Below are positions 12,100-28,808 of a stretch of DNA of 28,808 nt, in pieces (position 1 is the first letter of the stretch; every line of letters begins with the position of its first letter). Source of the DNA: a virus. The notes below the pieces were generated by a model that searched no databases, was not told the origin of the DNA, and worked only from the letters and a program-made list of their open reading frames with translations. Location of the stretch: IMG/VR virus record IMGVR_UViG_3300042566_000808, positions 1 to 28,808 of that record, one strand, 5' to 3'. Made by a program: the position numbers and the translations under genes.

Positions 12100-13425
12100 A
12101 TGTGGAAACTTGTAATCCCTGCACTGGCAGTGGCTCTAACAGGTTGTGGAGGAGGTGGTAGTAGTAGTAGCTCTGGCGCCAGCAACATTGCAGATGCAAT
12201 AGTAACAACCTCCCTGACTGTCGCTGGCTACGTTGAAAATTGTGGATGCAATCCAACTCTTGCTGCCGGAGAGTTTAGCGGCGCTGGTATCAAATATGTT
12301 GTTGTGAGTGGATGGCGTGCTGGCAACCATTTGATGCCTGTCAAAATTTATCGACTCAATACAGATGGCTCCACACAAGATGCTACTACAGATATCCTAG
12401 GCGGAGAGCTACAATTTTCTGTAAACTATCCTGTAGTTGCTGACTTCAACAAAGATGGCATAGATGATATATTTTTGCCTGGATTCAAAGATGCACCTTA
12501 CGTTGAGTTTAACCCATCTGTTGTGTTTTTAAGCAGATCAGGCCAAGCACACCAGCGTGTGGATGTACCTGGCATGAGTTGGAGTCATGCCAGTATGGCC
12601 TTAGATCTCAATAATGACGGATGGTTGGATGTTATCAACAGCACTGGATCAATGTGGATCAACGATCAAACTGGCAACTTTTCTTACATAGAACATTACA
12701 ATTGGGTAAACGGGAGAGTCAACGACAGCATTGCAGGCAGTGCCATATGTGCTGGTGATTTAGATAACTCTGGCACCATGCAACTAGTAGTTACTGATAT
12801 TTCAGGACACATACAAGACACCTGGGTGTTTAAATTTGATGCAGATCTCAAGCCAGTTAAAACAGCAGTATTGCCCATGCCATATTATGATAGGGCCACC
12901 ACAATCGAAGTTAGCCATGATGTTGGATGTGTGGTAACTGATTTAAATAACGATTCATTGCTAGATGTTGTACTAACCAGCACCACAGGTTATACTAGTA
13001 TTGTTCAAATCTACATCAATCAAGGCAACTATCAATTTGAAGAACTAACTGACACTGCTATGCCTGGATACAACAAAAATTCAATTGGAAGCTATCGTCC
13101 TACCATTGTGGATTTCAACCAAGATGGTTGGCCTGACATCTTTCTAGAAGGCAGTTTAGAAACTGAAAACAGCAACCAACTTTGGCTCAACAATGGTAAT
13201 GGCACCTTTACACAAAAAGGCAAAACTCAATTTGAAACATTAAGAGACGACAGTTTAAAGTTAGTGCTTGGTAGTGTTAAGTCAGGTCCCATGCTACCAA
13301 TCCGTGTTGGTGACAGATGGAATTTTGTTACAACAGCAGTATTAGGCGACAAATTTTACATTAACTATGCCCGGACACAATGGAGTTTCCGGTTATGGAA
13401 TTTTCAATCACGGAGTTTTCAATGA
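12100..13425 (+). CDS. Lipoprotein with FG-GAP/VCBS-type calcium-binding repeats
   Basis: 441 aa. MWKLVIPALAVALTGC is a lipoprotein signal with lipobox LTGC (C16), then a Gly/Ser linker (17-27). Five calcium-loop motifs recur: DFNKDGIDD (115-123), DLNNDGWLD (169-177), DLDNSG (220-225), DLNNDSLLD (281-289), DFNQDGWPD (338-346). This is the FG-GAP/integrin-like beta-propeller pattern of surface adhesins and matrix-binding proteins. AGGAG precedes the ATG. The extreme C-terminus (SFRLWNFQSRSFQ) reads through a 15-nt tandem repeat whose other frame encodes MEF-type pentapeptides, so the natural tail may have been altered. A surface lipoprotein of this kind is unusual in a phage; superinfection exclusion or altered host adhesion are possible roles. 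Confidence 0.82.
   Translation: MWKLVIPALAVALTGCGGGGSSSSSGASNIADAIVTTSLTVAGYVENCGCNPTLAAGEFSGAGIKYVVVSGWRAGNHLMPVKIYRLNTDGSTQDATTDILGGELQFSVNYPVVADFNKDGIDDIFLPGFKDAPYVEFNPSVVFLSRSGQAHQRVDVPGMSWSHASMALDLNNDGWLDVINSTGSMWINDQTGNFSYIEHYNWVNGRVNDSIAGSAICAGDLDNSGTMQLVVTDISGHIQDTWVFKFDADLKPVKTAVLPMPYYDRATTIEVSHDVGCVVTDLNNDSLLDVVLTSTTGYTSIVQIYINQGNYQFEELTDTAMPGYNKNSIGSYRPTIVDFNQDGWPDIFLEGSLETENSNQLWLNNGNGTFTQKGKTQFETLRDDSLKLVLGSVKSGPMLPIRVGDRWNFVTTAVLGDKFYINYARTQWSFRLWNFQSRSFQ
13380..13424 (+). repeat. Three imperfect 15-nt tandem repeats over a translation start
   Basis: Units: ATGGAGTTTCCGGTT, ATGGAATTTTCAATC, ACGGAGTTTTCAATG. Units 2 and 3 match at 12/15 positions. Each holds a GGA-type ribosome-binding core; units 1 and 3 lead into an ATG. 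The last unit supplies GGAG and the start codon of the next gene. Confidence 0.8.
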
Positions 13426-14425: not shown

Positions 14426-15925
14426 ATGATATTTGGATTTGGAATTCTCGCCACCGCATTACTCCTAAGCGCCGTAGCTGCCTACTACTCAGTGGCAGGT
14501 CTTACTGCTATATTCTCGGCGGCCACAATACCCGTGATCATCATGGGCGGCTCGTTGGAATTGGGCAAAATTGTTGCCACTGTATGGTTGCACAACAACT
14601 GGCGCCGTGCCGGTATTGTGTTCAAATTATATTTGGTACCGGCCATAGCATTCCTAATGATACTGACCAGCATGGGTATCTTTGGCTATTTGTCAAAGGC
14701 ACACTCGGATCAAAGTCTAGTGTCGGGTGATGTGCAAAGTAAAATTGCCATCTACGACGAAAAGATTCGAACAGCCAAGGATAATATAGATGCGAACCGG
14801 AAGGCGCTTAAACAGATGGATGAAGCTGTGGACCAAGTTATGGGTCGAAGCAGTGATGAAAAAGGTGCGGATAAGGCGGTACAAATCCGTCGCTCACAGC
14901 AGAAAGAACGAGCAAGACTTCAATCTGAGATTGCGGCCGAACAGAAAACTATTGCCGCCATTAGCGAAGAACGTGCGCCGATTGCCGCAGAGGTACGCAA
15001 GGTCGAAGCAGAAGTAGGACCAATCAAATACATTGCGGCCTTGCTTTACGGAGACAATCCTGATTCCAATCTGTTAGAACGTGCAGTGCGTTGGATGATC
15101 ATTATGATTGTGTTGGTGTTTGATCCACTTGCTCTCACACTTATCCTTGCATCCAACAAACAGTTTGAATGGGCACGACAAGGCACAGGCGGCTTTGTAC
15201 ACGACGAACCCAAATACGAACCAGACGATGGGCCTCTCACTGAACAACAACTAGAACAGATTCAGGCCAGTGTGGAACTACCAAAAGATCCGCATCCACC
15301 AGGTTGGATGTTTGATAAAAAAGAAGATGAACGTCCATGGAACGAACGTTATCCTTATCTTGCTTGGCCGTTTGAACATTTTAAAAATCTCAAGCCCATG
15401 GTTGCGCCAGATCCTGTCCGAGAAGATAAGGCTGCAATGGCTATTCGGCCCCCGGAAGAAATACCTGGTGTGGAAATACGTCCTTGGACTGACAAAGAAA
15501 TTGAAGCGTTAAATCAACCAGACGAAGATGAAATTGACAAAGAAGCCATACGTCGCTGGAAAATGGATCATCCAGATGATACTATTAAAAGTCAACGAAA
15601 CAAACTAGCCCGAGGCTATATTGATCGATTGCCTTGGCATGATCCAAAATACACACACTCAAGTTTTGGCAGTCAATTTCCTGCAAATCCCGGGCGTGGT
15701 GACACCTTTGTAAAAACTGATCGCATGCCACCACAGTTGTATAAATTCAACGGAGACGAGTGGATTATTATTGACAAAAACTCTACAGATAACTATACTT
15801 ACGACACAGCATACATTGATCATCTTATTGATAAGATTACTACAGGTGAGTATGAACCGGACTTACTGAGTGATATCGAACGAGAACAAGTTGCAGAGCG
15901 TCTTAAACAACCCAACAATTTATGA
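14426..15925 (+). CDS. Membrane protein with long periplasmic/cytoplasmic coiled coil
   Basis: 499 aa. Hydrophobic segments at about 4-25, 26-41, 62-89 and 222-243. Between the third and fourth lies a long heptad-rich coiled coil (about 97-198, Glu/Lys/Arg/Ala rich). The tail from 244 is acidic and Pro-rich, ending with a compact part (PPQLYKFNGDEWIIIDK and a Tyr-rich stretch). The architecture resembles membrane coil proteins of T4-like marine phages with no assigned role; a scaffold at the inner membrane is possible. The ribosome-binding site is poor; coupling from the preceding gene (stop 14418-14420) is likely. Its stop overlaps the clpX ATG. Confidence 0.78.
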   Translation: MIFGFGILATALLLSAVAAYYSVAGLTAIFSAATIPVIIMGGSLELGKIVATVWLHNNWRRAGIVFKLYLVPAIAFLMILTSMGIFGYLSKAHSDQSLVSGDVQSKIAIYDEKIRTAKDNIDANRKALKQMDEAVDQVMGRSSDEKGADKAVQIRRSQQKERARLQSEIAAEQKTIAAISEERAPIAAEVRKVEAEVGPIKYIAALLYGDNPDSNLLERAVRWMIIMIVLVFDPLALTLILASNKQFEWARQGTGGFVHDEPKYEPDDGPLTEQQLEQIQASVELPKDPHPPGWMFDKKEDERPWNERYPYLAWPFEHFKNLKPMVAPDPVREDKAAMAIRPPEEIPGVEIRPWTDKEIEALNQPDEDEIDKEAIRRWKMDHPDDTIKSQRNKLARGYIDRLPWHDPKYTHSSFGSQFPANPGRGDTFVKTDRMPPQLYKFNGDEWIIIDKNSTDNYTYDTAYIDHLIDKITTGEYEPDLLSDIEREQVAERLKQPNNL

Positions 15926-17154
15926 AACAAACCGAAAATTTAGATAATTGCAGTTTTTGTGGCAAACACAAGGATGCAGTGGTTAAATTGATAGTGGGCC
16001 AGGATGTCGCTATTTGCAATGAGTGTGTGGATCTTTGCCAAACGCTCTTGATAGATGATCCAGTGGTTAAACCTGTAGAACATGTTAGCCTTGATCCAAG
16101 AGCCATCTTAAAACATCTTGACCAGTACGTTATAGGACAAGATCGTGCCAAAATGGTGCTGAGTGTGGCCATTGCCAATCACTACAAACGCATACGCAAC
16201 CAAGACAAAAATACTGAAATTGAAAAAGTCAACATCTTGATGTTGGGCCCTACAGGCTCAGGCAAAACATTGTTGGCACGATCAGTGGCTAGATATTTAG
16301 ATGTGCCTTTTGTGATTGCTGATGCCACTAGCCTTACCGAAGCAGGTTATGTGGGCGACGACGTTGAAAGTTTAATTTCTCGCTTGTATGCCGCTTCAGG
16401 CAATGACGTTGAAAAAACACAACAAGGTATTGTGTTTGTGGATGAAATAGACAAGATCAGTCGCCGCAGTGAAAGTCAAAGTATCACACGAGATGTGTCA
16501 GGAGAAGGTGTACAGCAAGCTCTGCTCAAGTTGGTAGAAGGCACCAAGTGCAGAATCACACCAACCGGCGGCCGCAAACATCCCAATGGGGAAACAGTAG
16601 AGATTGACACCACAAACATCTTGTTTATCGCTGGTGGTGCATTTGTGGGTCTAGACAACATTGTGCGCAATCGCATACGTGGTACTGCTATTGGATTTCA
16701 AGCTGAAGTGTCAGTAGACCGTGCTGGTGACCTTGACCAAGTAACACCCGACGACTTGGTTAGATTTGGTATGATTCCAGAGTTTGTGGGACGTTTTCCA
16801 AGCTGGGTTGCACTAAATGAACTTGCACTGGAAGATTTGATATCTATCCTGACAGAAATCAAGCATAGTTATGTGGACCAATATCAGTGGTTGTTTGCAC
16901 AAGATCAAGTTGCATTAGACTTTGATAAAACAGCACTGGAACAGGTGGCTAAAAATACTCTAAAAAACAAAACAGGAGCACGTGGCCTGCATAGCGAACT
17001 GGAACGTGTGCTATTGCCACACATGTTTAATCTAGCACGTTATAAAGAACAAGGCATTGACCAAGTAAAAATCACTAATGACCTGGTAAATACTCCTACA
17101 GAACTAAAGGTACATGATGAACAAATTGCGAGGAAGGTCGGTAATAGTCGCTGA
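15922..17154 (+). CDS. clpX: ClpX, ATP-dependent unfoldase of the Clp protease
   Basis: 410 aa (E. coli 424). N-terminal zinc finger C10/C13/C32/C35 for adaptor and substrate binding; Walker A GPTGSGKT (109-116); pore-1 loop GYVGDD (142-147); Walker B VFVDEID (171-177); RKH loop (218-220); ClpP-docking IGF loop (257-259); sensor 2 GARGL (352-356). All elements for ATP hydrolysis, substrate pulling and ClpP docking appear intact, so it should be active. No clpP is in the window, so it would have to use host ClpP or act as a stand-alone unfoldase. The ATG overlaps the preceding TGA, and its 3' end overlaps bS21 by 41 bp. Confidence 0.97.
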
Positions 17155-17341
17155 TGGTAATGTAGAAAAAGCTCTACGTAAATTCAAGAAAAAAATCCAG
17201 ACATCTGGTATTCTTAACGACCTGCGTGATCGTGAATTCTACACCAAGCCTACTACTGCTCGCAAGCTCAAACGCAGTGCTGCTAAAAATCGCTGGCGCA
17301 GACAACTGGCCGAGCAAGCACTGCCTAAAAAAATGTACTGA
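17114..17341 (+). CDS. rpsU: Ribosomal protein bS21
   Basis: 75 aa (bacterial bS21 is about 70). Core VEKALRKFKKKIQTSGILND followed by LRDREFYTKPTTARKLK is the family hallmark (ALRRFKR...REFYEKPTxxRKR), with a basic tail. bS21 sits on the 30S platform by the anti-Shine-Dalgarno site and influences initiation; phage copies are thought to enter host ribosomes and bias translation. Two ATGs (17114, 17117) follow AAAGG; either may be used. The gene begins inside clpX. The stop overlaps the next ATG (TGATG). Confidence 0.93.
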   Translation: MMNKLRGRSVIVADGNVEKALRKFKKKIQTSGILNDLRDREFYTKPTTARKLKRSAAKNRWRRQLAEQALPKKMY

Positions 17342-17568
17342 TGTACATTGAGTTCCAGTTGTCCTCAGACTTAGTTCGAAACAAACTGAATGCATGGGCA
17401 ATAAAATACAATATCAAATACCGTACTAAAGTATTCAAATACACCTTGCGGGTTACATTTGATTCAGACGAATCTTACACACTATTTGCAATGACGTGGG
17501 TACCACACCCAGAACATCCAGAATGGACAACTTACCGCTTGGTAACTGACCTAAATAATAAAATATAG
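17341..17568 (+). CDS. Small hypothetical protein
   Basis: 75 aa, coupled to bS21 by TGATG. Alternating hydrophobic residues (MYIEFQLSSDLV, FKYTLRVTFDSDESYTLF, TTYRLVTDL) suggest a small beta/alpha fold with a helix at 11-24. Cytoplasmic, no signature. Coupling to bS21 suggests coordinate expression, nothing more. Confidence 0.7.
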   Translation: MYIEFQLSSDLVRNKLNAWAIKYNIKYRTKVFKYTLRVTFDSDESYTLFAMTWVPHPEHPEWTTYRLVTDLNNKI

Positions 17569-17585
17569 TTTTTCTTCGTGTATAA

Positions 17586-17591
17586 TAAATA
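17586..17591 (+). promoter_or_regulatory. Late-promoter-like TAAATA upstream of hsp20
   Basis: TAATAAATAAC around 17583-17593 resembles the T4/cyanophage late box (TATAAATA / CTAAATA). It lies 64 bp before the hsp20 ATG. An overlapping TATAAT (17581-17586) has no -35 partner at 16-18 bp. A hairpin begins 2 nt after the box. Confidence 0.45.
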
Positions 17592-17593
17592 AC

Positions 17594-17621
17594 AATGTAG
17601 TGCCCATAGTGGGGCTACATT
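17594..17621 (+). other. Stem-loop in hsp20 leader
   Basis: AATGTAG (17594-17600) pairs with CTACATT (17615-17621); inner CCC/GGG pairs extend the stem. No U-tract, so a 5' leader structure or weak transcription barrier is more likely than a terminator. Confidence 0.55.
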
Positions 17622-17655
17622 ACAAGTCATCTTGCTTATATAAAGGAGAAAACAA

Positions 17656-18108
17656 ATGACAAAAACTCTCACCCTTCGCGGCTTCGACATTCCATCAATT
17701 CACAAATTTGGTATCGGTTTCGATAACATGTTTGATGAACTCATGCGTGTGAGTGCTCAACAATCCTCAACAAACTATCCACCTTACAACATTGTGCAAA
17801 TCAATGAAGATGAGTACATGATCAGTCTTGCTGTGGCTGGTTTTGGATTGGATAATCTTTCAGTAACCAAGGACAAAAAATTCTTGATCATTGAAGGCAA
17901 AGAGTATCAACCTGATAGCGACAAGATCGTGCCAAACTATCTGCACAAAGGCATCAGCAATAGAGATTTCCGTCGTGAATTCCAACTTGCAGACCATGTG
18001 GAGATCAGCAATGCTCATCTTGAACTGGGTATCTTAAGCGTTTACCTAAAGCGTGAAGTGCCGGAAGACGCTAAGCCAAAGACCATTGCGATCACCTACA
18101 CTTCCTAA
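17656..18108 (+). CDS. Small heat shock protein Hsp20 (IbpA-like)
   Basis: 150 aa ATP-independent holdase. The alpha-crystallin domain spans about 38-140: PPYNIVQINEDEYMISLAVAG then FGLDNLSVT, FLIIEGKE, GISNRDFRREFQLADHV, and a final LSVYLKREVPEDAK. The C-terminal I-A-I (residues about 145-147) is the IxI motif for oligomer assembly. AAAGGAG lies 8 nt before the ATG. Hsp20 is common in T4-like phages of aquatic bacteria, where it probably protects virion proteins during assembly. It has its own leader with a late-type box and hairpin, so it can be transcribed apart from clpX-bS21. Confidence 0.95.
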   Translation: MTKTLTLRGFDIPSIHKFGIGFDNMFDELMRVSAQQSSTNYPPYNIVQINEDEYMISLAVAGFGLDNLSVTKDKKFLIIEGKEYQPDSDKIVPNYLHKGISNRDFRREFQLADHVEISNAHLELGILSVYLKREVPEDAKPKTIAITYTS

Positions 18109-18118
18109 TATAATAGTG

Positions 18119-18124
18119 TAAATA
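18119..18124 (+). promoter_or_regulatory. Late-promoter-like TAAATA upstream of clpS
   Basis: GTGTAAATACAG, 52 bp before the clpS ATG. A TATAAT (18109-18114) sits just upstream but lacks a -35. The box is followed directly by a strong hairpin, as at 17586 and 25276. Confidence 0.45.
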
Positions 18125-18150
18125 CAGTGGCAGCAATCCTGCTGCCACTG
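18125..18150 (+). other. Perfect 11-bp stem-loop between hsp20 and clpS
   Basis: CAGTGGCAGCA, loop ATCC, TGCTGCCACTG: 11 uninterrupted pairs with a tetraloop. The downstream sequence (ATTGTATAG) has no U-run, so intrinsic termination would be weak. It could protect or attenuate the hsp20 message or structure the clpS leader. Confidence 0.75.
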
Positions 18151-18176
18151 ATTGTATAGCAAAGCAAGGAATAGAA

Positions 18177-18488
18177 ATGGCACAGAGCGACACCCGCACA
18201 CGAATCAAACCATCAGAGGCCGTAAAAGAGCCACCTATGTTTCGCGTGGTTTACTTGAACGACAACACAACTTCCATGGAATTTGTGGTTGAAAGTTTGG
18301 TTGAATATTTTGAATACACCCCCGAAACCGCAGAACAAATCACCATTGACATTCACGAAGAAGGCTCTGCTTGTGTGGCAGTGTTGCCTTATGAGATTGC
18401 TGAACAAAAAGGTGTTGAAGTTACTGTGAGTGCTAGATCACAAAACTATCCGCTTCAAATCAAACTGGAACCTGAAACAGTTCAATAA
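18177..18488 (+). CDS. clpS: ClpS, N-degron adaptor
   Basis: 103 aa (E. coli 106). Aligns without gaps to E. coli ClpS from PP(M)F/YxV to PLxxxLE. The N-degron pocket is mostly kept: N28-D29 (E. coli N34/D35), T32 (T38), M34 (M40), V37 (V43), H60 (H66). D36 is replaced by Asn30 and the gatekeeper M62 by Thr56. ClpS normally hands N-end-rule substrates to ClpA-ClpP and blocks some other ClpA substrates. The N-terminal extension (1-18) needed for ClpA activation is short but present. AAGGA precedes the ATG. The 3' end overlaps the convergent phosphoesterase gene by 7 bp. Confidence 0.94.
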   Translation: MAQSDTRTRIKPSEAVKEPPMFRVVYLNDNTTSMEFVVESLVEYFEYTPETAEQITIDIHEEGSACVAVLPYEIAEQKGVEVTVSARSQNYPLQIKLEPETVQ

Positions 18489-19655: not shown

Positions 19656-20925
19656 TCCACTTGTAAAAATCGTCTATGTCTTGTTGTGTTCTGCCTGGTT
19701 TGACATTGTTATAGTATTTTCCCATCTCAGGATTTAGGCTGGCAATTTCTCCCAGTTTTTTGTACCACATTCCAGTTCGGTTTTGATTCATTATGTCAAT
19801 TGCTTGATTGAGATTGTGTTGATACTCATCAACAACCATGTCATGAAAGTTGGATGAAAAAAACCATTTTTTGTTGTAGTCGGCAATTTCATAAAGTTTC
19901 TCCCATAACAAAGTTTTGTCAGCACGATCTAATTTGGCTATCCTATTCATTTCTGCAATGATCATGTGCAGTCGCGTTGCCGAATCTGTTTCTTGATCGT
20001 AATCTTCGTTTATGATTGGACTGAATGTTTTAAACCCATAGTCTTTTAAATACGCTAAACTTCCTGGTGTAGCTACTGCAATAAACGGCATACCACATGC
20101 TATGGGTCTTAACATTTTTTCTGTAAGGTGATTTCGTTGATCATCAAACAACGTTTCTAAAACTACTTCGATGCCTGCACTACCATAATCATCGTGGTTG
20201 TAGTCTGCACTAGCTGCGGAAGAATGTGTGTTTAATGGCAGGTGAGATTCCAATGCTGTTGAAATTTTAAAATTGGCATTTTGATATTTGTGATCTTGAT
20301 AATGTGTGTCTGAATCAATTGGATTGAAACTTGTTTTGCAATAGGTTGTTAGACTATTTGCGCACAATAATTCTGCAAATTTAAGTCTGTATTCTCTAGT
20401 GCCGGACCAAGCACGATTGTATATTAAAAAATCTGTTTGAATGTTTTTGTGCTTTAGTAAAGGGTCATGCTCGGCAAATCTAAACCAATCTCTAGCTATC
20501 AGTGCATGACTCCAGTAATAAACAGGTACAAATCCTACAGCCTGATATTTTTCCACTTCTGGGCTGTTTTTTTCACTGTGGCATAACATCATTAGATCAT
20601 AGCCAGAATATGCAGTAGGAATAACTCCTCTAATGTGCATTTGAGACAATTGTGCTAACATTTCGGAATGAGCTTGTTGATTAAATCTTTCAAAGGCCAA
20701 AGCAGAAATACTATCGTTACTATACAAATCAAATTGTAAAGGTTCTTGATCGTGAAAGATTATAGCCGGAGTTGTCTGCCCGTAAAACCAGGCAACGTGG
20801 TCCGTAAAGTAAAACTTTAAATCAGCCAATTTTTTTGAGCCATATGGTTTAAAGCCATAAATTATGATATCGTGCTTGCACAAGTCGTGCAAAAAATTAT
20901 ATAATCTATCTAAAGGAACGCTCAT
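19639..20925 (-). CDS. Glycosyltransferase-like protein
   Basis: 428 aa, minus strand. The C-terminal half has blocks of phage glycosyltransferase-like proteins: GIEVVLETLFDDQRNHLTEK (the E..LF...LTEK donor-site pattern), MLRPIACGMPFIAVATPGSL, and YGFKTFSPIINEDYD. The N-terminal half (IIIYGFKPYGSKKL, IIFHDQEPLQFDLY) could be the acceptor domain. The sugar and acceptor are unknown; the neighbouring sugar dehydrogenase suggests a common glycan. The ATG at 20925 overlaps the plus-strand dehydrogenase ATG (CATG); with no ribosome-binding site there, an internal TTG (20892) is an alternative start. Confidence 0.72.
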   Translation of the reverse strand: MSVPLDRLYNFLHDLCKHDIIIYGFKPYGSKKLADLKFYFTDHVAWFYGQTTPAIIFHDQEPLQFDLYSNDSISALAFERFNQQAHSEMLAQLSQMHIRGVIPTAYSGYDLMMLCHSEKNSPEVEKYQAVGFVPVYYWSHALIARDWFRFAEHDPLLKHKNIQTDFLIYNRAWSGTREYRLKFAELLCANSLTTYCKTSFNPIDSDTHYQDHKYQNANFKISTALESHLPLNTHSSAASADYNHDDYGSAGIEVVLETLFDDQRNHLTEKMLRPIACGMPFIAVATPGSLAYLKDYGFKTFSPIINEDYDQETDSATRLHMIIAEMNRIAKLDRADKTLLWEKLYEIADYNKKWFFSSNFHDMVVDEYQHNLNQAIDIMNQNRTGMWYKKLGEIASLNPEMGKYYNNVKPGRTQQDIDDFYKWINQNS

Positions 20926-22165
20926 GGCAAAAATTGGTTTTATTGGAATTGGTAAACTTGGGTTAGACTGTGCCGAAGTAATGGCAGAAAAACATCAAGT
21001 GTGGGGATATGATATTTACCCACGAACAAGTGACTCGGTAAAAGTATGTGGGATTGAAGAACTAGTAACCGAAAGTGAGTGGATTTTTATTGCTGTACCA
21101 ACTCCACATGCACAAGGCTATGATGGATCAATTCCCAGTTCGCATATGGAACCTCGAGACTTTGGGCATGATGCTGTAATTGATGCAATTAAGAATGTCA
21201 ACAAGTACGCAACAACATCTAAGAAAGTTGTGTTAATTTCCACAGTACTACCGGGCACCACACGCAAATATTTTTATCCGTTGTTGGATAAAAAACATCA
21301 GTTCTTGTACAACCCTTACCTCATTGCCATGGGGTCAGTCAAGTGGGACATGGTCAATCCTGAAATGATTATGATAGGCACCGAAGACGGCAACCCTAAC
21401 GCATTGGCTGGTGAACTTCGCGCACTGTATGACACAGTGATGCAGAACAATCCACGCTATGAGATTGGCACCTGGGACGAGTGCGAAGCTATCAAGATCT
21501 TCTACAACACTTTTATCTCAGCCAAGGTTGGTCTTGTGAACATGATTCAAGATTTTGCCATGAAGATTGGACACATCAACGTTGATGTTGTGACTGATGC
21601 TTTAGCACGTTCAACCATGCGCATCATGGGACCCAAGTACATGACAGCTGGCATGGGAGATGCAGGTGCTTGCCATCCACGTGATAATATTGCTCTGCGT
21701 TGGTTAGCACAAGAATATGACATTGGATATGATTTGTTTGATACTGTGATGCATGCCCGTGAGATTCAAGCCAAAAATTTGGCAAATTATTTGGTTCACC
21801 TCAGTGCGATGAACGACGACATGCCTATTGTGATTCACGGCAAGGCCTACAAGCCTGACGTAGAATACTGTATTGGCTCATACTCAACGCTGATCGGGCA
21901 CTATGTTGAACTGGCAGGCCGGTCAGTTGTTTATGTGGATCCATTGGCTGACAATAAAGACAAAGTTGTTGAGTCTGTTGATGAATCTGCAATCTTCTTA
22001 TGGGCGCACAATCGCAAGATCACCTATGAATACACAGGCGATCAAGCCGACACCAAACCATATTGCGATATTTTACCCGGCAGTATTATTGTTGATCCAT
22101 GGCGCAAGTTAGAATCTACCAACGACGTTGAAGTTGTACACTATGGCAACACACGTGGTGCTTGA
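20924..22165 (+). CDS. UDP-sugar 6-dehydrogenase (UDP-glucose/GDP-mannose dehydrogenase family)
   Basis: 413 aa. Oxidises a nucleotide sugar at C6 to the uronate with two NAD. The Rossmann G8-x-G10-xx-G13 and D30 bind NAD; VPTPH (58-62) and STVLPGTT (106-113) line the site; K191 in EAIKIFYNTF and the catalytic C250 in AGACHPRDN match the family K and C (GSCFPKD in UGDH). C-terminal nucleotide-sugar domain has IHGKAYKPDV (family GxAFK). The start ATG 20924 has AAAGGA 6 nt upstream. Whether the substrate is UDP-Glc, UDP-ManNAc or GDP-Man cannot be decided. The 3' end overlaps the next gene by 23 bp. Confidence 0.93.
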   Translation: MAKIGFIGIGKLGLDCAEVMAEKHQVWGYDIYPRTSDSVKVCGIEELVTESEWIFIAVPTPHAQGYDGSIPSSHMEPRDFGHDAVIDAIKNVNKYATTSKKVVLISTVLPGTTRKYFYPLLDKKHQFLYNPYLIAMGSVKWDMVNPEMIMIGTEDGNPNALAGELRALYDTVMQNNPRYEIGTWDECEAIKIFYNTFISAKVGLVNMIQDFAMKIGHINVDVVTDALARSTMRIMGPKYMTAGMGDAGACHPRDNIALRWLAQEYDIGYDLFDTVMHAREIQAKNLANYLVHLSAMNDDMPIVIHGKAYKPDVEYCIGSYSTLIGHYVELAGRSVVYVDPLADNKDKVVESVDESAIFLWAHNRKITYEYTGDQADTKPYCDILPGSIIVDPWRKLESTNDVEVVHYGNTRGA

Positions 22166-23906: not shown

Positions 23907-24938
23907 ATGACTACACACTCACGTTTTGGCTTTTGTTGCAAATGGCTCAATGACCCCGAGGAAACTGGGGGCATGAAAGTCAATGCTGTGGACCGTGACA
24001 TAAACGGAAGATCAACTACCATGCGCTGGCTGCGTGAGCATGCTGCCGAAGCTGACCAGCGTCAGTGGGATATCATGAACCATAACGCTGCCGCGGCCCT
24101 TAAAATGGTTGAGCGTGTGGGTGCAATGGAACCCGAGCGCAGAATGGTGCGACTGGGATCAGAAATGTTACAGGGCTATACAGAACCCTCGTGGATCAAT
24201 TGGTGGCAACGACGTGAAATTCAAGATCATTGCGAACGCATATTCGCGCCGGTTGGTGACGCTGCTCGGCGTTTGGGTGTTCGGCTTTCCTTCCATCCAG
24301 GGCAATTTTGTGTGCTGGCAAGCGAATCGGATGAAATCGTTGAACGATCCATTTTGGAATTCGAGTATCATGCAGATATGGCCCGGTGGATGGGGTATGG
24401 AAACACGTATCATGATCACGGATTTAAGATTAACGTACACTTATCGGGCAAGGGCGGTCCTGCTAAGTTTTTGCGTACCTTGAGCAGACTAAGTACAGAA
24501 GCCCGAAACTTAATCACAATAGAAAATGACGAACTTACAAATGGACTTGACGTTACTCTTGCCGTGGCTGATCATGTGGCTCTTGTGCTGGATATCCATC
24601 ACCACTGGATCAATACCGGCGAATATATCACCCCTACGGACCCACGTGTGCAACGGGTTATTGAGTCTTGGCGTGGTGTGCGTCCTACACTACACTACTC
24701 AGTTAGTCGTGAAGACTGCCTTGTTGACCACTCTCGCACAGTAAAGCCTGACTTGAGTGCGCTGTTGGCACAGGGCTACAAAAAGCAAAAACTGCGAGCC
24801 CACAGTGACTTCTATTGGAACGAAGCTGTGAATGATTGGGCACTGACATTCGCTGATCAATTCAACATTCAGTGCGAGGCCAAAGGCAAGAATCTGGCTC
24901 GGGATCAATTATACCAGCAATGGCTGGCCACTCGATGA
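23907..24938 (+). CDS. uvsE: UV damage endonuclease UvdE/UvsE
   Basis: 343 aa. A metal-dependent TIM-barrel nuclease that nicks 5' to UV photoproducts in an alternative excision pathway. Family motifs: RFGFCC at the start, LSFHPGQFCVL (127-137), INVHLSGKGG (175-184), ENDE (206-209) and DIHHH (229-233), which carry the metal ligands (His, Glu, Asp). Length and order match bacterial UvsE. T4 itself uses the unrelated DenV glycosylase. No ribosome-binding site precedes the ATG, and a weak promoter (TAGACT-17-TACAAT, 23872-23900) would start transcription at the ATG. Confidence 0.94.
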   Translation: MTTHSRFGFCCKWLNDPEETGGMKVNAVDRDINGRSTTMRWLREHAAEADQRQWDIMNHNAAAALKMVERVGAMEPERRMVRLGSEMLQGYTEPSWINWWQRREIQDHCERIFAPVGDAARRLGVRLSFHPGQFCVLASESDEIVERSILEFEYHADMARWMGYGNTYHDHGFKINVHLSGKGGPAKFLRTLSRLSTEARNLITIENDELTNGLDVTLAVADHVALVLDIHHHWINTGEYITPTDPRVQRVIESWRGVRPTLHYSVSREDCLVDHSRTVKPDLSALLAQGYKKQKLRAHSDFYWNEAVNDWALTFADQFNIQCEAKGKNLARDQLYQQWLATR

Positions 24939-25225
24939 ACAACATTTTAACCGGCATCTTTGAATGGATCAAAAGTGATTACAAGACCCACCCTTTTAGG
25001 TTTGTCATGGAAGTATTGGCTTGGGTTATCAGCATTGGTTGTAGTATTACAATGGCGGCCACTCTACCAAATCCACCCTTCTTTGTGCTTTACCCTGTGT
25101 GGATCACTGGTTGCACTATCTATGCCTGGGCTGCTTGGACTCGCAGAAGTTTTGGGATGTTGGCTAACTACATTCTGCTCACGACTATTGACACCATTGC
25201 GTTGATTCGACTGGTGTTTTTATAA
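24935..25225 (+). CDS. Small multi-pass membrane protein
   Basis: 96 aa; ATG overlaps the uvsE TGA. Hydrophobic segments at about 24-43 (VMEVLAWVISIGCSITMAA), 47-66 (PPFFVLYPVWITGCTIYAWA) and 73-95 (FGMLANYILLTTIDTIALIR), separated by Pro and a WTRRS basic turn. Pattern is that of a three-helix inner-membrane protein; a half-transporter resemblance is not strong enough to name. Cotranscribed with uvsE. Confidence 0.72.
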   Translation: MNNILTGIFEWIKSDYKTHPFRFVMEVLAWVISIGCSITMAATLPNPPFFVLYPVWITGCTIYAWAAWTRRSFGMLANYILLTTIDTIALIRLVFL

Positions 25226-25230
25226 ACATA

Positions 25231-25245
25231 GTTGACATAGTCAAC
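25231..25245. promoter_or_regulatory. Inverted repeat GTTGAC-ATA-GTCAAC
   Basis: Six-bp arms, 3-nt spacer, perfectly symmetric; contains TTGACA (25232-25237). A possible -10 (TGTCAT, 25255) is poor. The half-site TTGAC/GTCAA is shared with the inverted repeat at 13875. Confidence 0.45.
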
Positions 25246-25273
25246 CCAAAGTTTTGTCATCCAAAAATCATTC

Positions 25274-25281
25274 TATAAATA
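25274..25281 (+). promoter_or_regulatory. T4-type late promoter TATAAATA
   Basis: Exact TATAAATA consensus in the intergenic gap, 28 bp before the DnaE-like ATG. The next bases form TGCCTA (25284-25289), 10-nt loop, TAGGCA (25300-25305), and the only ribosome-binding-like AGG (25301-25303) sits in the right arm. Confidence 0.65.
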
Positions 25282-25309
25282 TCTGCCTAAAGCAACCAAT
25301 AGGCAACAC

Positions 25310-26986
25310 ATGGACAGATATAGAGAACTTGAACAACTCATAACACAATTTAGAAGAAACTTACCCCAAGACCAACACTACGCAGACAGACTGGCAGAAG
25401 AACTAGAACTAATAAGAGATCAAAATTTTGCTCGACATTTTTTGCGAGTGAGAGAAATACTAGATCTCACAACAGACATACCACACATCACAAGAGGATC
25501 AGCAGGATCCAGCCTGGTGTGCTGGCTCATGGGCATCAGTGATCTTGATCCTGTGGCAGAAAACATCCCCATAGCACGTTTCATGAATCCCAAACGTGAT
25601 GACTTACCCGATATTGACCTAGACTTTCCACATTGGCAACAGGCCACGGTGATGAATAGAATATTCAAACGATGGCCTGGACGAAGTGCTAGAGTTTCAA
25701 ACTATGTAATGTACAAGGAAAAGTCAGCCAAGAGAGAAGCAGCCAAAAGACTAGGCGCCAAAGGCACACTCAAACGAGGTTTTGAATTCAATCAAGTGCT
25801 ACCGCCAGAAGAAATAGAAGAAGCCGAACGTGTAACAGCCAAACTCATGGGCAAGAAACGCTGTATATCCAAACACTGTGGAGGCATCTTGATTTTTGAT
25901 CGTGCTGTGCCCAAGAGCCTGATCAACGGCGACAATCAAATCTTGTTGGACAAATACGAAACTGAAGATCTTGAACACTTCAAAATTGATATCTTGGCCA
26001 ATCGCGGATTAAGCCAACTGTGGGAAATTGATCAGCGTCCGTTAACTGACTATCCCGAACATGATCAAGCCACCAGCGATCTGCTGGGACGTGGTGATGT
26101 GCTGGGTGTGACGCAGGGCGAGTCACCGGCCATGAAAAGACTGTTCAGGGCTCTCAAAGTAAAGAGCCGTAGTGACTGTACCTTGGCCACTGCACTGATC
26201 CGACCAGTGGCCACACAGGGTCGTCGCAAGGCATCAGCGTTTCAAGACTGGTCAGCAGATACCATACAGCAAGACACAGTGGTATTTGAGGATGATGCCA
26301 TAACCATGATTGCTGATATCTTGGAATGCGATATGTACACCGCGGACATGTGGCGCAGAGCCTTTGCCAAACGCAACGAAGAAAAGATCTATGAATTCAT
26401 GCAGTTGATCGGGGATCATCCCAAAAGAGACAGTGTGCTGAGTGCCTTGAGAGAACTCAGTCATTTTGGTCTTTGCCGCGCTCATGCCACTAATTTAGGT
26501 AGATTGATCTGGGCCTTGGCCTATCAAAAGGCACACAATCCTGAACAATTCTGGAGAGCCTGCTTGAAACATTGTGAAGGCAGTTACAGTCGTTGGGTGT
26601 ATTATCAAGAAGCCAAATTGGCCGGTGCTGTGCATGCTCCAATGGAGGGAGGTGAGTGTGAGGAACTGGCTCGTACTGGTCGTTGGACCAGCGGTAGATT
26701 TATTCCGGCCTGCACAGAAATACGACGTCCGGGTGAAATAGAATTTTTGGGACTGGTTGCCAATTATCGAGTGTTCAAAAGCGGTGCCAAAGATTACATT
26801 ACCTTTGCTACCCTGGGCACCGGCAACGGACGTTACTTGGATGTGATACTACCACATGCTATCTCATTCTCAGATCAACCAATTCTATGGGGGAAAGGCC
26901 GGTTGGACTATACAAACAGTTCAGAATGTGTTAAAGTATACAAAAGCAAACGCATGCGACTGCAAGACATAGCACACATTGATTAA
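25310..26986 (+). CDS. Short family C DNA polymerase (DnaE-like) without PHP domain
   Basis: 558 aa (E. coli DnaE 1160). The palm and fingers of DNA polymerase III alpha are recognisable: RGSAGSSLV (62-70; DnaE GRGSGAGSLV), LPDIDLDF with D103/D105 (DnaE D401/D403), HFKIDILANRGL with D227 (D555), GVTQGESPAMKRL (DnaE GVFQLESRGMK), and FGLCRAHATNLGRLIWALAYQ (fingers H-A-x-x). All three catalytic aspartates remain. The N-terminal PHP domain and most C-terminal modules are absent; IEFLGLVANYRVF-KSGAKDYITFATL may be an OB-like remnant. T4-like phages normally use the family B gp43, so this may be an accessory or repair polymerase. Coupled to the next gene by TAATG. Confidence 0.9.
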   Translation: MDRYRELEQLITQFRRNLPQDQHYADRLAEELELIRDQNFARHFLRVREILDLTTDIPHITRGSAGSSLVCWLMGISDLDPVAENIPIARFMNPKRDDLPDIDLDFPHWQQATVMNRIFKRWPGRSARVSNYVMYKEKSAKREAAKRLGAKGTLKRGFEFNQVLPPEEIEEAERVTAKLMGKKRCISKHCGGILIFDRAVPKSLINGDNQILLDKYETEDLEHFKIDILANRGLSQLWEIDQRPLTDYPEHDQATSDLLGRGDVLGVTQGESPAMKRLFRALKVKSRSDCTLATALIRPVATQGRRKASAFQDWSADTIQQDTVVFEDDAITMIADILECDMYTADMWRRAFAKRNEEKIYEFMQLIGDHPKRDSVLSALRELSHFGLCRAHATNLGRLIWALAYQKAHNPEQFWRACLKHCEGSYSRWVYYQEAKLAGAVHAPMEGGECEELARTGRWTSGRFIPACTEIRRPGEIEFLGLVANYRVFKSGAKDYITFATLGTGNGRYLDVILPHAISFSDQPILWGKGRLDYTNSSECVKVYKSKRMRLQDIAHID

Positions 26987-27297
26987 TGGCCCGACTACAC
27001 ATATATCCCCATAACGAACCACAACAAGATCTACACATAGTGGCAGATCCTGCTGCACTGAGAGCACTGGCACAGGCTCTGTTAAGTGTGGCAAAAAATC
27101 CAAACAGTTTTGAACGAATTAAATTGCACACAAGTGATGGTCATGAATACACTGCCATGATTGTGTCTGGTGTGGGCGAAGAGGAATGGCAGAGTATCCC
27201 ACCGGCCTATGCTGAATCAACAGTTCCTACAATATCTACGTTAGAAGACTATCACAGCCTAAAAAAACAGTTGACAGAGTCACAACAAAAACTGTAA
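26986..27297 (+). CDS. Small hypothetical protein coupled to the DnaE-like gene
   Basis: 103 aa, start sharing one base with the polymerase stop (TAATG). An amphipathic helix (DPAALRALAQALLSVAKN, 21-38) follows a beta strand (LHIVA), then strands ERIKLHTSDGHEYTAMIVSG; the C-terminal 25 residues look helical (LEDYHSLKKQLTESQQKL). The strand-helix-strand core is loosely like Imm32-type folds, a weak resemblance. Translational coupling hints at a polymerase partner, unproven. Confidence 0.65.
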   Translation: MARLHIYPHNEPQQDLHIVADPAALRALAQALLSVAKNPNSFERIKLHTSDGHEYTAMIVSGVGEEEWQSIPPAYAESTVPTISTLEDYHSLKKQLTESQQKL

Positions 27298-27320
27298 CAA
27301 AATTGTAATGCATTTCTCCG

Positions 27321-27330: not shown

Positions 27331-28125
27331 ATGGAGAAAACATATCGCAGCATCTTTATCTCCGATGTTCACCTAGGCACCAAAGAGTGCCAAGCTGATC
27401 GTCTAAACAATTTCCTCAAGCACAACACCTGCGAATCCTTGTACCTAGTGGGCGACATCATTGACGGTTGGAAGGTGCAACAAAACCGATTGAGATGGAA
27501 GCAAAGCCATACCAATGTGGTTCGCAGGATCTTAGGCCATGCCAAACGCGGCACACGAGTTGTGTATGTGGCCGGCAATCACGACGAATTTTTACGCCCA
27601 ATGATACCTGACGGTATCACCTTTGGACATGTGGAAGTTCGCAATCAATGTGAACATGTGGGCGCAGATGGAAAACATTATTTGGTCACACATGGTGACT
27701 TGTTCGATGGTATTACTAGACTGGCACCATGGCTGAGTTTTCTAGGAGACAAAGCATATGATTTTATATTATTTCTCAACACTAAGTTTAATTGGATACG
27801 TCATCGCATGGGTTTTGGGTACTGGAGTATTAGCCTGTATCTTAAGCATCGCGTTAAAAAAGCAGTAGATTTTATATTTCAATTTGAACGCAATCTCACT
27901 GACTACTGTAAAAAGCGTGGATTTGATGGCGTAATATGTGGACACATTCATCATGCTGAAATCAAAACTATAAATGGCGTTGTTTACATGAATGATGGCG
28001 ACTGGGTTGAGTCATGCACAGCATTGGTAGAACATCATTCAGGTGCATGGGAAATTGTAACATGGACTCAAAAAAATGACAAAGAAGATACTGATAGTAA
28101 CAGACAACTTGCCGGATCAAATTAA
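27331..28125 (+). CDS. LpxH-like metallophosphoesterase (UDP-2,3-diacylglucosamine diphosphatase type)
   Basis: 264 aa. Motifs: SD12-V-H14-L-G-T, GDIIDGW (41-47), GNHDEF (82-87), THGD (120-123), CGHIHHA (203-209). The order and the DVHLG-T-..C-QAD and GDIIDGW blocks match the LpxH-related group found beside envelope glycosyltransferases in many proteobacteria. LpxH itself cleaves UDP-diacylglucosamine in lipid A synthesis; the exact substrate of this subgroup is uncertain. Hydrophobic/aromatic 140-185 could be a membrane-contact lid. ATG 27331 has no proper ribosome-binding site. Its 3' end overlaps the glycosyltransferase by 50 bp, implying tight coupling. Confidence 0.88.
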   Translation: MEKTYRSIFISDVHLGTKECQADRLNNFLKHNTCESLYLVGDIIDGWKVQQNRLRWKQSHTNVVRRILGHAKRGTRVVYVAGNHDEFLRPMIPDGITFGHVEVRNQCEHVGADGKHYLVTHGDLFDGITRLAPWLSFLGDKAYDFILFLNTKFNWIRHRMGFGYWSISLYLKHRVKKAVDFIFQFERNLTDYCKKRGFDGVICGHIHHAEIKTINGVVYMNDGDWVESCTALVEHHSGAWEIVTWTQKNDKEDTDSNRQLAGSN

Positions 28126-28808
28126 TGGTGTGGTTACGACCTACAAGAATTTGGAGGCACATGCGCTTTTGGATGGGTATCAGCTTGTTTATATTGATCC
28201 CGGGCAGTTCCCCCACCGTGATTGTCCTGGCTACAACGAAGTCAAGATTGCCTATCCCCGGGCGCTGCGCCAGAAGATTGCGGAGGTGGGTGCGGATCAT
28301 TACCATATTGCCACAGAGGGTCCTCTCGGTGTGTCTGCTCGACACCTGCTTGAGCGTGACGGTATACGTTATAATACCGCTTATCATACTCGCTTCCCTG
28401 AAGGCATAAAAAAACTTGTGGGTGTGCCTGAATTTATTACCTGGGCCTATGTGCGTTGGTTCCACAAACACTCAGGCAAGGTGCTGACCACAACAGAAAC
28501 CATGGTCAACGAACTGAGAGATCAAGGCTTTGACGGCACAGTGATCAGTTGGACACGTGGTGTTGACCGAGAAGTGTTCAAGCCTGACTGGCGTGATCCT
28601 GCGGAAAATGATCGTCCCATCCTGGTGTGCGTGAGTAGAGTTTCAAAAGAAAAGAACCTTGATGACTTTTGTGCCATGGAATATCCGGGTGCTAGAAAAA
28701 TCATGGTAGGTGATGGTCCTTACAGAAAAGAACTGCAACAGAAATATCCTGACGTGGAGTTTGTGGGATTTAAAACTGGACCGGCCCTGGCGGAATACTA
28801 TGCACAGG
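28076..28808 (+). CDS. GT4 family glycosyltransferase, 3' end outside window
   Basis: 244 codons visible; the frame is open to the right edge. N-terminus KKILIVTDNLPDQINGVVTT is the GT4 acceptor-domain start (V-T-D-x-x-P-x-x-N-G-V). HIATEGPLG (77-85), TAYHTRFPE (101-109), W-T-R-G-V-D-R-E-V-F (159-168), VSRVSKEKNL (186-195) and VGDGPYR (211-217) match the GT-B retaining glycosyltransferases, such as bacterial lipid mannosyl/sulfoquinovosyl transferases. Acceptor is probably a membrane lipid, given the LpxH-like partner, but that is inference. ATG 28076 lies inside the phosphoesterase gene; no other start gives this N-terminus. Confidence 0.92.
   Translation, partial: MTKKILIVTDNLPDQINGVVTTYKNLEAHALLDGYQLVYIDPGQFPHRDCPGYNEVKIAYPRALRQKIAEVGADHYHIATEGPLGVSARHLLERDGIRYNTAYHTRFPEGIKKLVGVPEFITWAYVRWFHKHSGKVLTTTETMVNELRDQGFDGTVISWTRGVDREVFKPDWRDPAENDRPILVCVSRVSKEKNLDDFCAMEYPGARKIMVGDGPYRKELQQKYPDVEFVGFKTGPALAEYYAQ

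Follow-up and report, generated by a model that had tools for sequence, protein, structure and literature searches.

What could a phage gain from a phosphoesterase and a glycosyltransferase encoded one into the other? Such a pair closes a viral IMG/VR record of 28,808 bases, the whole of which was analysed and is called the window here; the source is a virus of aquatic bacteria. The original prediction offered two options for the pair, alteration of LPS by way of an LpxH-like enzyme, or replacement of phospholipid under phosphate limitation. Phosphate uptake genes are already known from phages that aid starving hosts, and phospholipids are a sizeable phosphorus store of small aquatic bacteria.

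An overlapping gene pair that recurs in phages

The first gene (27331-28125, + strand, 264 aa; Pfam Metallophos, E 7.5e-11) encodes a plcP-type calcineurin-like metallophosphoesterase, predicted to act as a phospholipase C on membrane phospholipids. The second (28076-28808, + strand; Pfam Glyco_transf_4, E 1.6e-12) encodes an Agt-like GT4 glycosyltransferase, predicted to be a diacylglycerol-using glycolipid synthase, of which 244 codons (through 28807) are present before the contig ends; the full-length protein in a relative with 98% protein identity has 331 aa (L002:8746-9741). Read directly, the two frames share exactly 50 bp (28076-28125, + strand). Coordinates and Pfam matches bear out both reading frames, their 50-bp overlap and the GT4 call made for the gene that the contig end cuts, while the term "fused" does not apply, as the genes overlap in separate reading frames. 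The same overlap of 50 bp is seen in L001, L002, L005, L007-L010, L012, L013 and others, and further loci have overlaps of 29, 32 or 68 bp. Purifying selection acts strongly on both genes, with dN/dS against close relatives well under 0.1 (phosphoesterase 0.026-0.048, glycosyltransferase 0.058-0.066). These values, together with the recurrence of the pair in many phage contigs, rule out chance or decayed reading frames.

The phosphoesterase has relatives on at least 596 viral contigs. Pairing was counted in the distinct phage loci where 1.3 kb or more of sequence follows plcP (n=106), and none of these lacks a downstream glycosyltransferase: a GT4 gene follows directly in 80, a GT2 gene in 19, a RimK-like gene and then GT4 in six, and GT4 about 1 kb further on in one, so that the glycosyltransferase comes immediately after plcP in all but seven loci (one gene or a gap between). 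Loci retrieved with the glycosyltransferase as query are biased toward the pair, and the set retrieved with plcP only (L001-L080) gives the same picture. The original prediction had named absence of the pair from relatives as evidence against it; the pair recurs, with a glycosyltransferase after plcP in 106/106 loci.

Two variations on this arrangement can be located. The GT2 protein (PF00535, ~237 aa) takes the place of GT4 directly after plcP in L022, L024, L025, L034, L052 and others, and the gene between plcP and GT4 in the six loci (L040:1970-2857, L049, L091 and L147 among them) encodes a RimK-like ATP-grasp ligase.

Could the contig be a misassembly or a cellular fragment, and the pair no phage gene set at all? 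The 28.8-kb window does lack an identified capsid gene. On the other hand, the ribonucleotide reductase and ligase of the window match phage families, a T4-type gp23 capsid gene is found on 7 of the 27 large plcP-bearing contigs, the isolate phages Mosig and S-SRM01 carry phosphoesterase homologues, and the phage glycosyltransferases group as one clade separate from bacteria, which leaves this reading with next to no probability. A megablast comparison of the window with named phages returned no match.

Class of the phosphoesterase

The closest bacterial homologue of the phosphoesterase shares 61% identity with it, and PlcP-type homologues at 48-61% are found in Alphaproteobacteria, including Pelagibacteraceae proteins encoded beside the glycolipid synthase gene agt (53%) and the Sinorhizobium meliloti homologue (48.6%). 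An agt-like gene lies directly downstream of the bacterial homologues in Pelagibacteraceae, Caulobacter, Azospirillum, Pelagibius and others. The S. meliloti homologue (L241) has a malic enzyme gene as its neighbour, an arrangement which we take to fit the published plcP locus. The calcineurin-like metal site (D-x-H, GD, GNHD, H, GHxH) is invariant in 117 phage proteins and in essentially all of the 72 bacterial homologues.

The resemblance to LpxH, on which the LPS option rests, proved to be one of fold. The predicted structure (pLDDT 77) comes closest to LpxH (Z 17.9, 18% identity), and phage protein and LpxH share a helical insert within a calcineurin-like metallophosphoesterase fold; this comparison of a model confirms the fold and does not resolve the substrate. 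At the level of sequence, the phage protein is only 16-19% identical to LpxH structures and misses both NCBIfam LpxH cut-offs by a wide margin (40.6 vs 134 bits and 30.4 vs 190.35 bits), and scores as low as these are also obtained for the bacterial PlcP-type proteins of Pelagibacteraceae and Sinorhizobium. Moreover, GNHD is found in 117/117 phage phosphoesterases, as opposed to GNRD in the aligned LpxH chains, the Arg of which is presumably the LpxH-defining residue. The missed cut-offs and the GNHD motif speak against LpxH, and the identity to agt-linked homologues, with which the comparison was made, points to the type of PlcP, the Mn-dependent phospholipase C that acts in lipid remodelling. 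"LpxH-like" is therefore apt for the fold and not for the sequence class, and alteration of LPS by such an enzyme loses its footing. A true LpxH, with the pair modifying lipid A or LPS, would agree with the nearest solved fold and with annotators' habit of naming such genes UDP-2,3-diacylglucosamine diphosphatase; given the profile scores, the GNHD motif, the low identity and the phosphate-starvation context of the pair described below, we regard it as highly improbable.

Pho-box-like repeat and pstS neighbours

Upstream of plcP we found a Pho-box-like direct repeat (27292-27309, + strand), CTGTAAC-AAAA-TTGTAAT, consisting of two 7-mers with an 11-bp period, which is a candidate PhoB site. It begins 39 nt before the plcP ATG. 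No other site on either strand of the window is an exact match to YTGTMAYN4YTGTMAY, of which 0.01 would be expected; this pattern was relaxed at one base after the site was seen. When sites with at least 12/14 matches and no more than 80 nt upstream were counted, they preceded 37 of 57 phage plcP genes vs 17 of 938 other reading frames in the same loci (Fisher p ~1e-39, a value that overstates the number of independent events because the phage loci have common ancestry). The distances from site to plcP cluster at 39 and 50 nt, that is, one 11-bp period apart. The repeat stands at promoter distance, as expected of a PhoB-controlled phage gene. At the same time, predicted Pho boxes were not reliable predictors of PhoB binding in a cyanophage study (PMC10976474). 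A T4-type late promoter immediately before the ATG (GTAAATACT), considered on reading the sequence, was set aside, as it would leave no leader.

Downstream of each exact site (47 in the phage loci) stands plcP in 23 cases, pstS in 16 and phoX in two, the remainder being three members of an unknown family and three singletons. The fixed spacing of the repeat, having flagged pstS and phoX unprompted, may serve as a simple signature for further phosphate-controlled phage genes. The two phoX genes (L152:3787-5988 and L133, from 3748) encode PhoX alkaline phosphatase (PF05787, E 4e-122), and an unknown protein of 215 aa follows exact repeats in two phage loci (L067:7195-7839 and L155).

Of 27 large contigs, 11 have a pstS-type gene, in many cases immediately before plcP, and in 17 of 57 loci pstS lies in the same orientation no more than 5 kb from plcP. 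In the near relatives L001 and L084, pstS directly follows the glycosyltransferase gene with a repeat of its own, and the L001 product passes two curated PstS cut-offs. In the isolate Pelagibacter phage Mosig, the homologue and a phosphate ABC transporter gene lie head-to-head. No pstS was found in the 28.8-kb window or in the examined stretches of L002 and L003, two of the nearest long relatives.

Comparison with relatives also marks where the module begins. DNA similarity to L001, L002 and L084 ends at about 25209 and restarts at 27293, at the edge of the repeat, from where 90-93% identity continues to the contig end; the repeat and the two genes behave as a unit. The stretch between (25210-27292) is an insertion found in this contig alone among those compared. 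It carries a 558-aa piece of DNA polymerase III alpha, in which the N-terminal region of the phage family profile is missing, and a reading frame of 103 aa weakly like Imm32. We considered this DnaE fragment and small reading frame (25310-27297) as part of the operon and rejected them, since 25210-27292 is absent from relatives and homology restarts at the repeat.

These surroundings bear on another reading, in which the operon alters the envelope for other ends (superinfection block, altered adsorption or easier lysis), with phosphate saving in second place. In its favour, sugars on surface lipids can influence how phages attach, and lipid class alters phage susceptibility in Ruegeria (PMC9938194). 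The Pho-box-like repeat and the neighbouring pstS and phoX genes, however, link the operon to phosphate supply, and we consider this reading unlikely.

The glycosyltransferase clade and the proposed pathway

For the second gene, bacterial relatives were sought with the glycosyltransferase alone as query in samples of 289 and 369 genomes from two proteobacterial classes. The best matches in both classes were 37-46% identical, and most of those fetched have a plcP-type gene adjacent. The Pelagibacter enzyme GTcp acts on diacylglycerol with UDP-Glc, UDP-Gal or UDP-GlcA (PMC8231724), and the phage proteins keep its Gly16, Gly82, Gly85, His104, Arg163, Arg190, Lys195, Thr257, Phe258, Gly259, Glu264 and Trp320. 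Among these, the catalytic and diacylglycerol/UDP-sugar residues His104, Arg190, Lys195, Glu264 and Trp320 occur in 93/93 phage glycosyltransferases and Arg163 in 92/93; the window copy itself stops short of the Trp320 position.

The phage proteins differ from the bacterial ones at one motif. WETFG is present in 92 of 93 phage glycosyltransferases, vs TDTFG in 50/50 bacterial Agt sequences, which places Glu where GTcp has Asp256; WETFG was also absent from further bacterial sequences whose motif was read. The FPSxTDTFG motif with Asp256 that delimits the Agt/GTcp group is thus lacking in all but one of the phage glycosyltransferases, and because WETFG replaces TDTFG we term them an Agt-like sister clade rather than members of Agt/GTcp. 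The phage glycosyltransferases form one clade (SH-aLRT 100), as do the core phage phosphoesterases (support 99), which suggests that the module is an old possession of phages and not a recent acquisition. The structural model of the glycosyltransferase (pLDDT 90.6) has a GT-B fold, with Z 31.2 to a GT4-like sucrose-phosphate synthase and 30.4 to MshA; the model confirms the fold, from which the substrate cannot be distinguished.

The change from TD to WE suggests that the sugar donor may differ from that of bacterial Agt. Taken further, the phosphoesterase would yield diacylglycerol and the WETFG enzyme would take another donor or acceptor, so that the product would not be the bacterial glycolipid. 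The near-fixation of WETFG in phages and its absence from the 50 bacterial Agt sequences, the separate phage clade, and a non-homologous GT2 in the same slot in 19/106 loci are all consistent with this. At the same time, His104, Arg163 (92/93), Trp320 and the remaining UDP-sugar residues are conserved, and other GT4 enzymes, MshA among them, usually have Glu here (PMC8231724). We therefore consider a different product possible though doubtful, and it is with the same reserve that we propose a virus-specific, diacylglycerol-derived glycolipid, absent from hosts and induced by the host's own phosphate alarm, as what the phage clade may make.

A nucleotide-sugar dehydrogenase-like gene of the window (20864-22165, + strand; Pfam UDPG_MGDP_dh, E 5.1e-15) scores 132 bits on the NCBIfam nucleotide sugar dehydrogenase profile, under the cut-off of 190. 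Homologues lie within about 6 kb of plcP in 11 of 57 phage loci, a loose association, and one may speculate that the gene provides a UDP-glucuronate donor.

Altogether, we favour, with a probability of about 0.78, a reading of the pair as a PhoB-responsive phage operon for phosphorus-saving membrane remodelling like the bacterial PlcP-Agt pathway; the enzyme activities, PhoB binding and phage benefit that it entails are inferred from homology and context. In an infected host short of phosphate, activated PhoB would bind the repeat at 27292-27309 and the operon would be transcribed. The phosphoesterase would hydrolyse host phosphatidylglycerol and phosphatidylethanolamine to diacylglycerol and a phosphate ester, which the cell would recycle into nucleotides for phage DNA, and the glycosyltransferase would use a UDP-sugar to glycosylate the diacylglycerol; with the phosphorus-free glycolipid so formed, the membrane would stay intact. 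The phage would thereby gain phosphate for DNA synthesis without membrane collapse. This reading is supported by the homology to bacterial plcP-agt, the Pho-box-like site at a fixed distance and the adjoining phage pstS, so that of the two options first offered, replacement of phospholipid under phosphate limitation gains support and alteration of LPS does not. Against the favoured reading stand the Glu at the Asp256 position, as GTcp lost more than 90% of its activity on the change D256E (PMC8231724), the lack of pstS in the window and in the stretches of L002 and L003, and the cyanophage result on predicted Pho boxes.

In bacteria, deletion of PlcP abolishes betaine lipid, agt yields MGDG and GADG in E. 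coli, and plcP directly before agt is the type 2 arrangement of marine bacteria, with agt adjacent in about a quarter of plcP-bearing marine isolates (PMC4796936). For SAR11 plcP, published work describes recovery of DGTS in a plcP-deleted Phaeobacter MED193 starved of phosphate. The phage pair resembles the operons of Pelagibacter HTCC7211, Phaeobacter MED193 and Agrobacterium (PMC4796936, PMC8231724) in gene families, gene order, type of phosphate-starvation control site and key residues, and differs in being phage-borne, in the separate WETFG clade of its glycosyltransferase, in its longer overlap and in the GT2 that replaces GT4 in some phages. Cyanophages are likewise known to place phosphate-stress genes (pstS, phoA) under host PhoB control against phosphate shortage, and pstS is common to both systems; there, however, the genes serve uptake and DNA replication, whereas the plcP-glycosyltransferase module would act on membrane lipids, and the cyanophage sites are of the cyanobacterial repeat type, whereas the site here is of the proteobacterial CTGTCAT type (PMC10976474). 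Both components thus had precedents, PlcP and Agt in bacteria and phosphate genes under PhoB in cyanophages; the pair in phages appears to be new, mainly for its distinct glycosyltransferase clade with an altered active site. In the open-licence literature we found no description of plcP-agt in phages and no paper that brings "plcP" together with "auxiliary metabolic genes"; an earlier description in subscription papers or preprints is possible. A Lake Baikal virus survey names "lpxH" among viral genes, without interpretation, and the genome note on Mosig makes no reference to either lipid or phosphate. If the module acts as proposed, a widespread phage module that rebuilds the host membrane to release phosphorus would be a new target beyond phosphate uptake, and viruses may have partial control over the lipid composition of low-phosphate waters.

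Several further genes and variants were seen along the way. A single phage glycosyltransferase of the 93 (L056:8904-9911) has the bacterial TDTFG; its long branch is basal in the phage clade, and it may represent an intermediate form. Eight Pelagibacteraceae loci (e.g. L226 and L252) encode Agt homologues with Cys at the catalytic His104 of GTcp. Fatty-acid desaturase genes occur near the pair (L022:13233-14006, L044:9710-10423 and L025:6105-6809, the last of which passes the curated DesA cut-off with 408.9 vs 400 bits), and 14 of 57 loci have one within about 6 kb; a BPL_N/glutamine-amidotransferase-like protein (L002:10265-10894 and homologues) is encoded within about 6 kb of plcP in 30 of 57 phage loci. 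Elsewhere in the window, a ClpX-like gene is followed by small Hsp20-like and ClpS-like reading frames (15922-18488, read from the sequence), and a UvdE endonuclease (23907-24938) and an FG-GAP repeat protein (12100-13425) are encoded.
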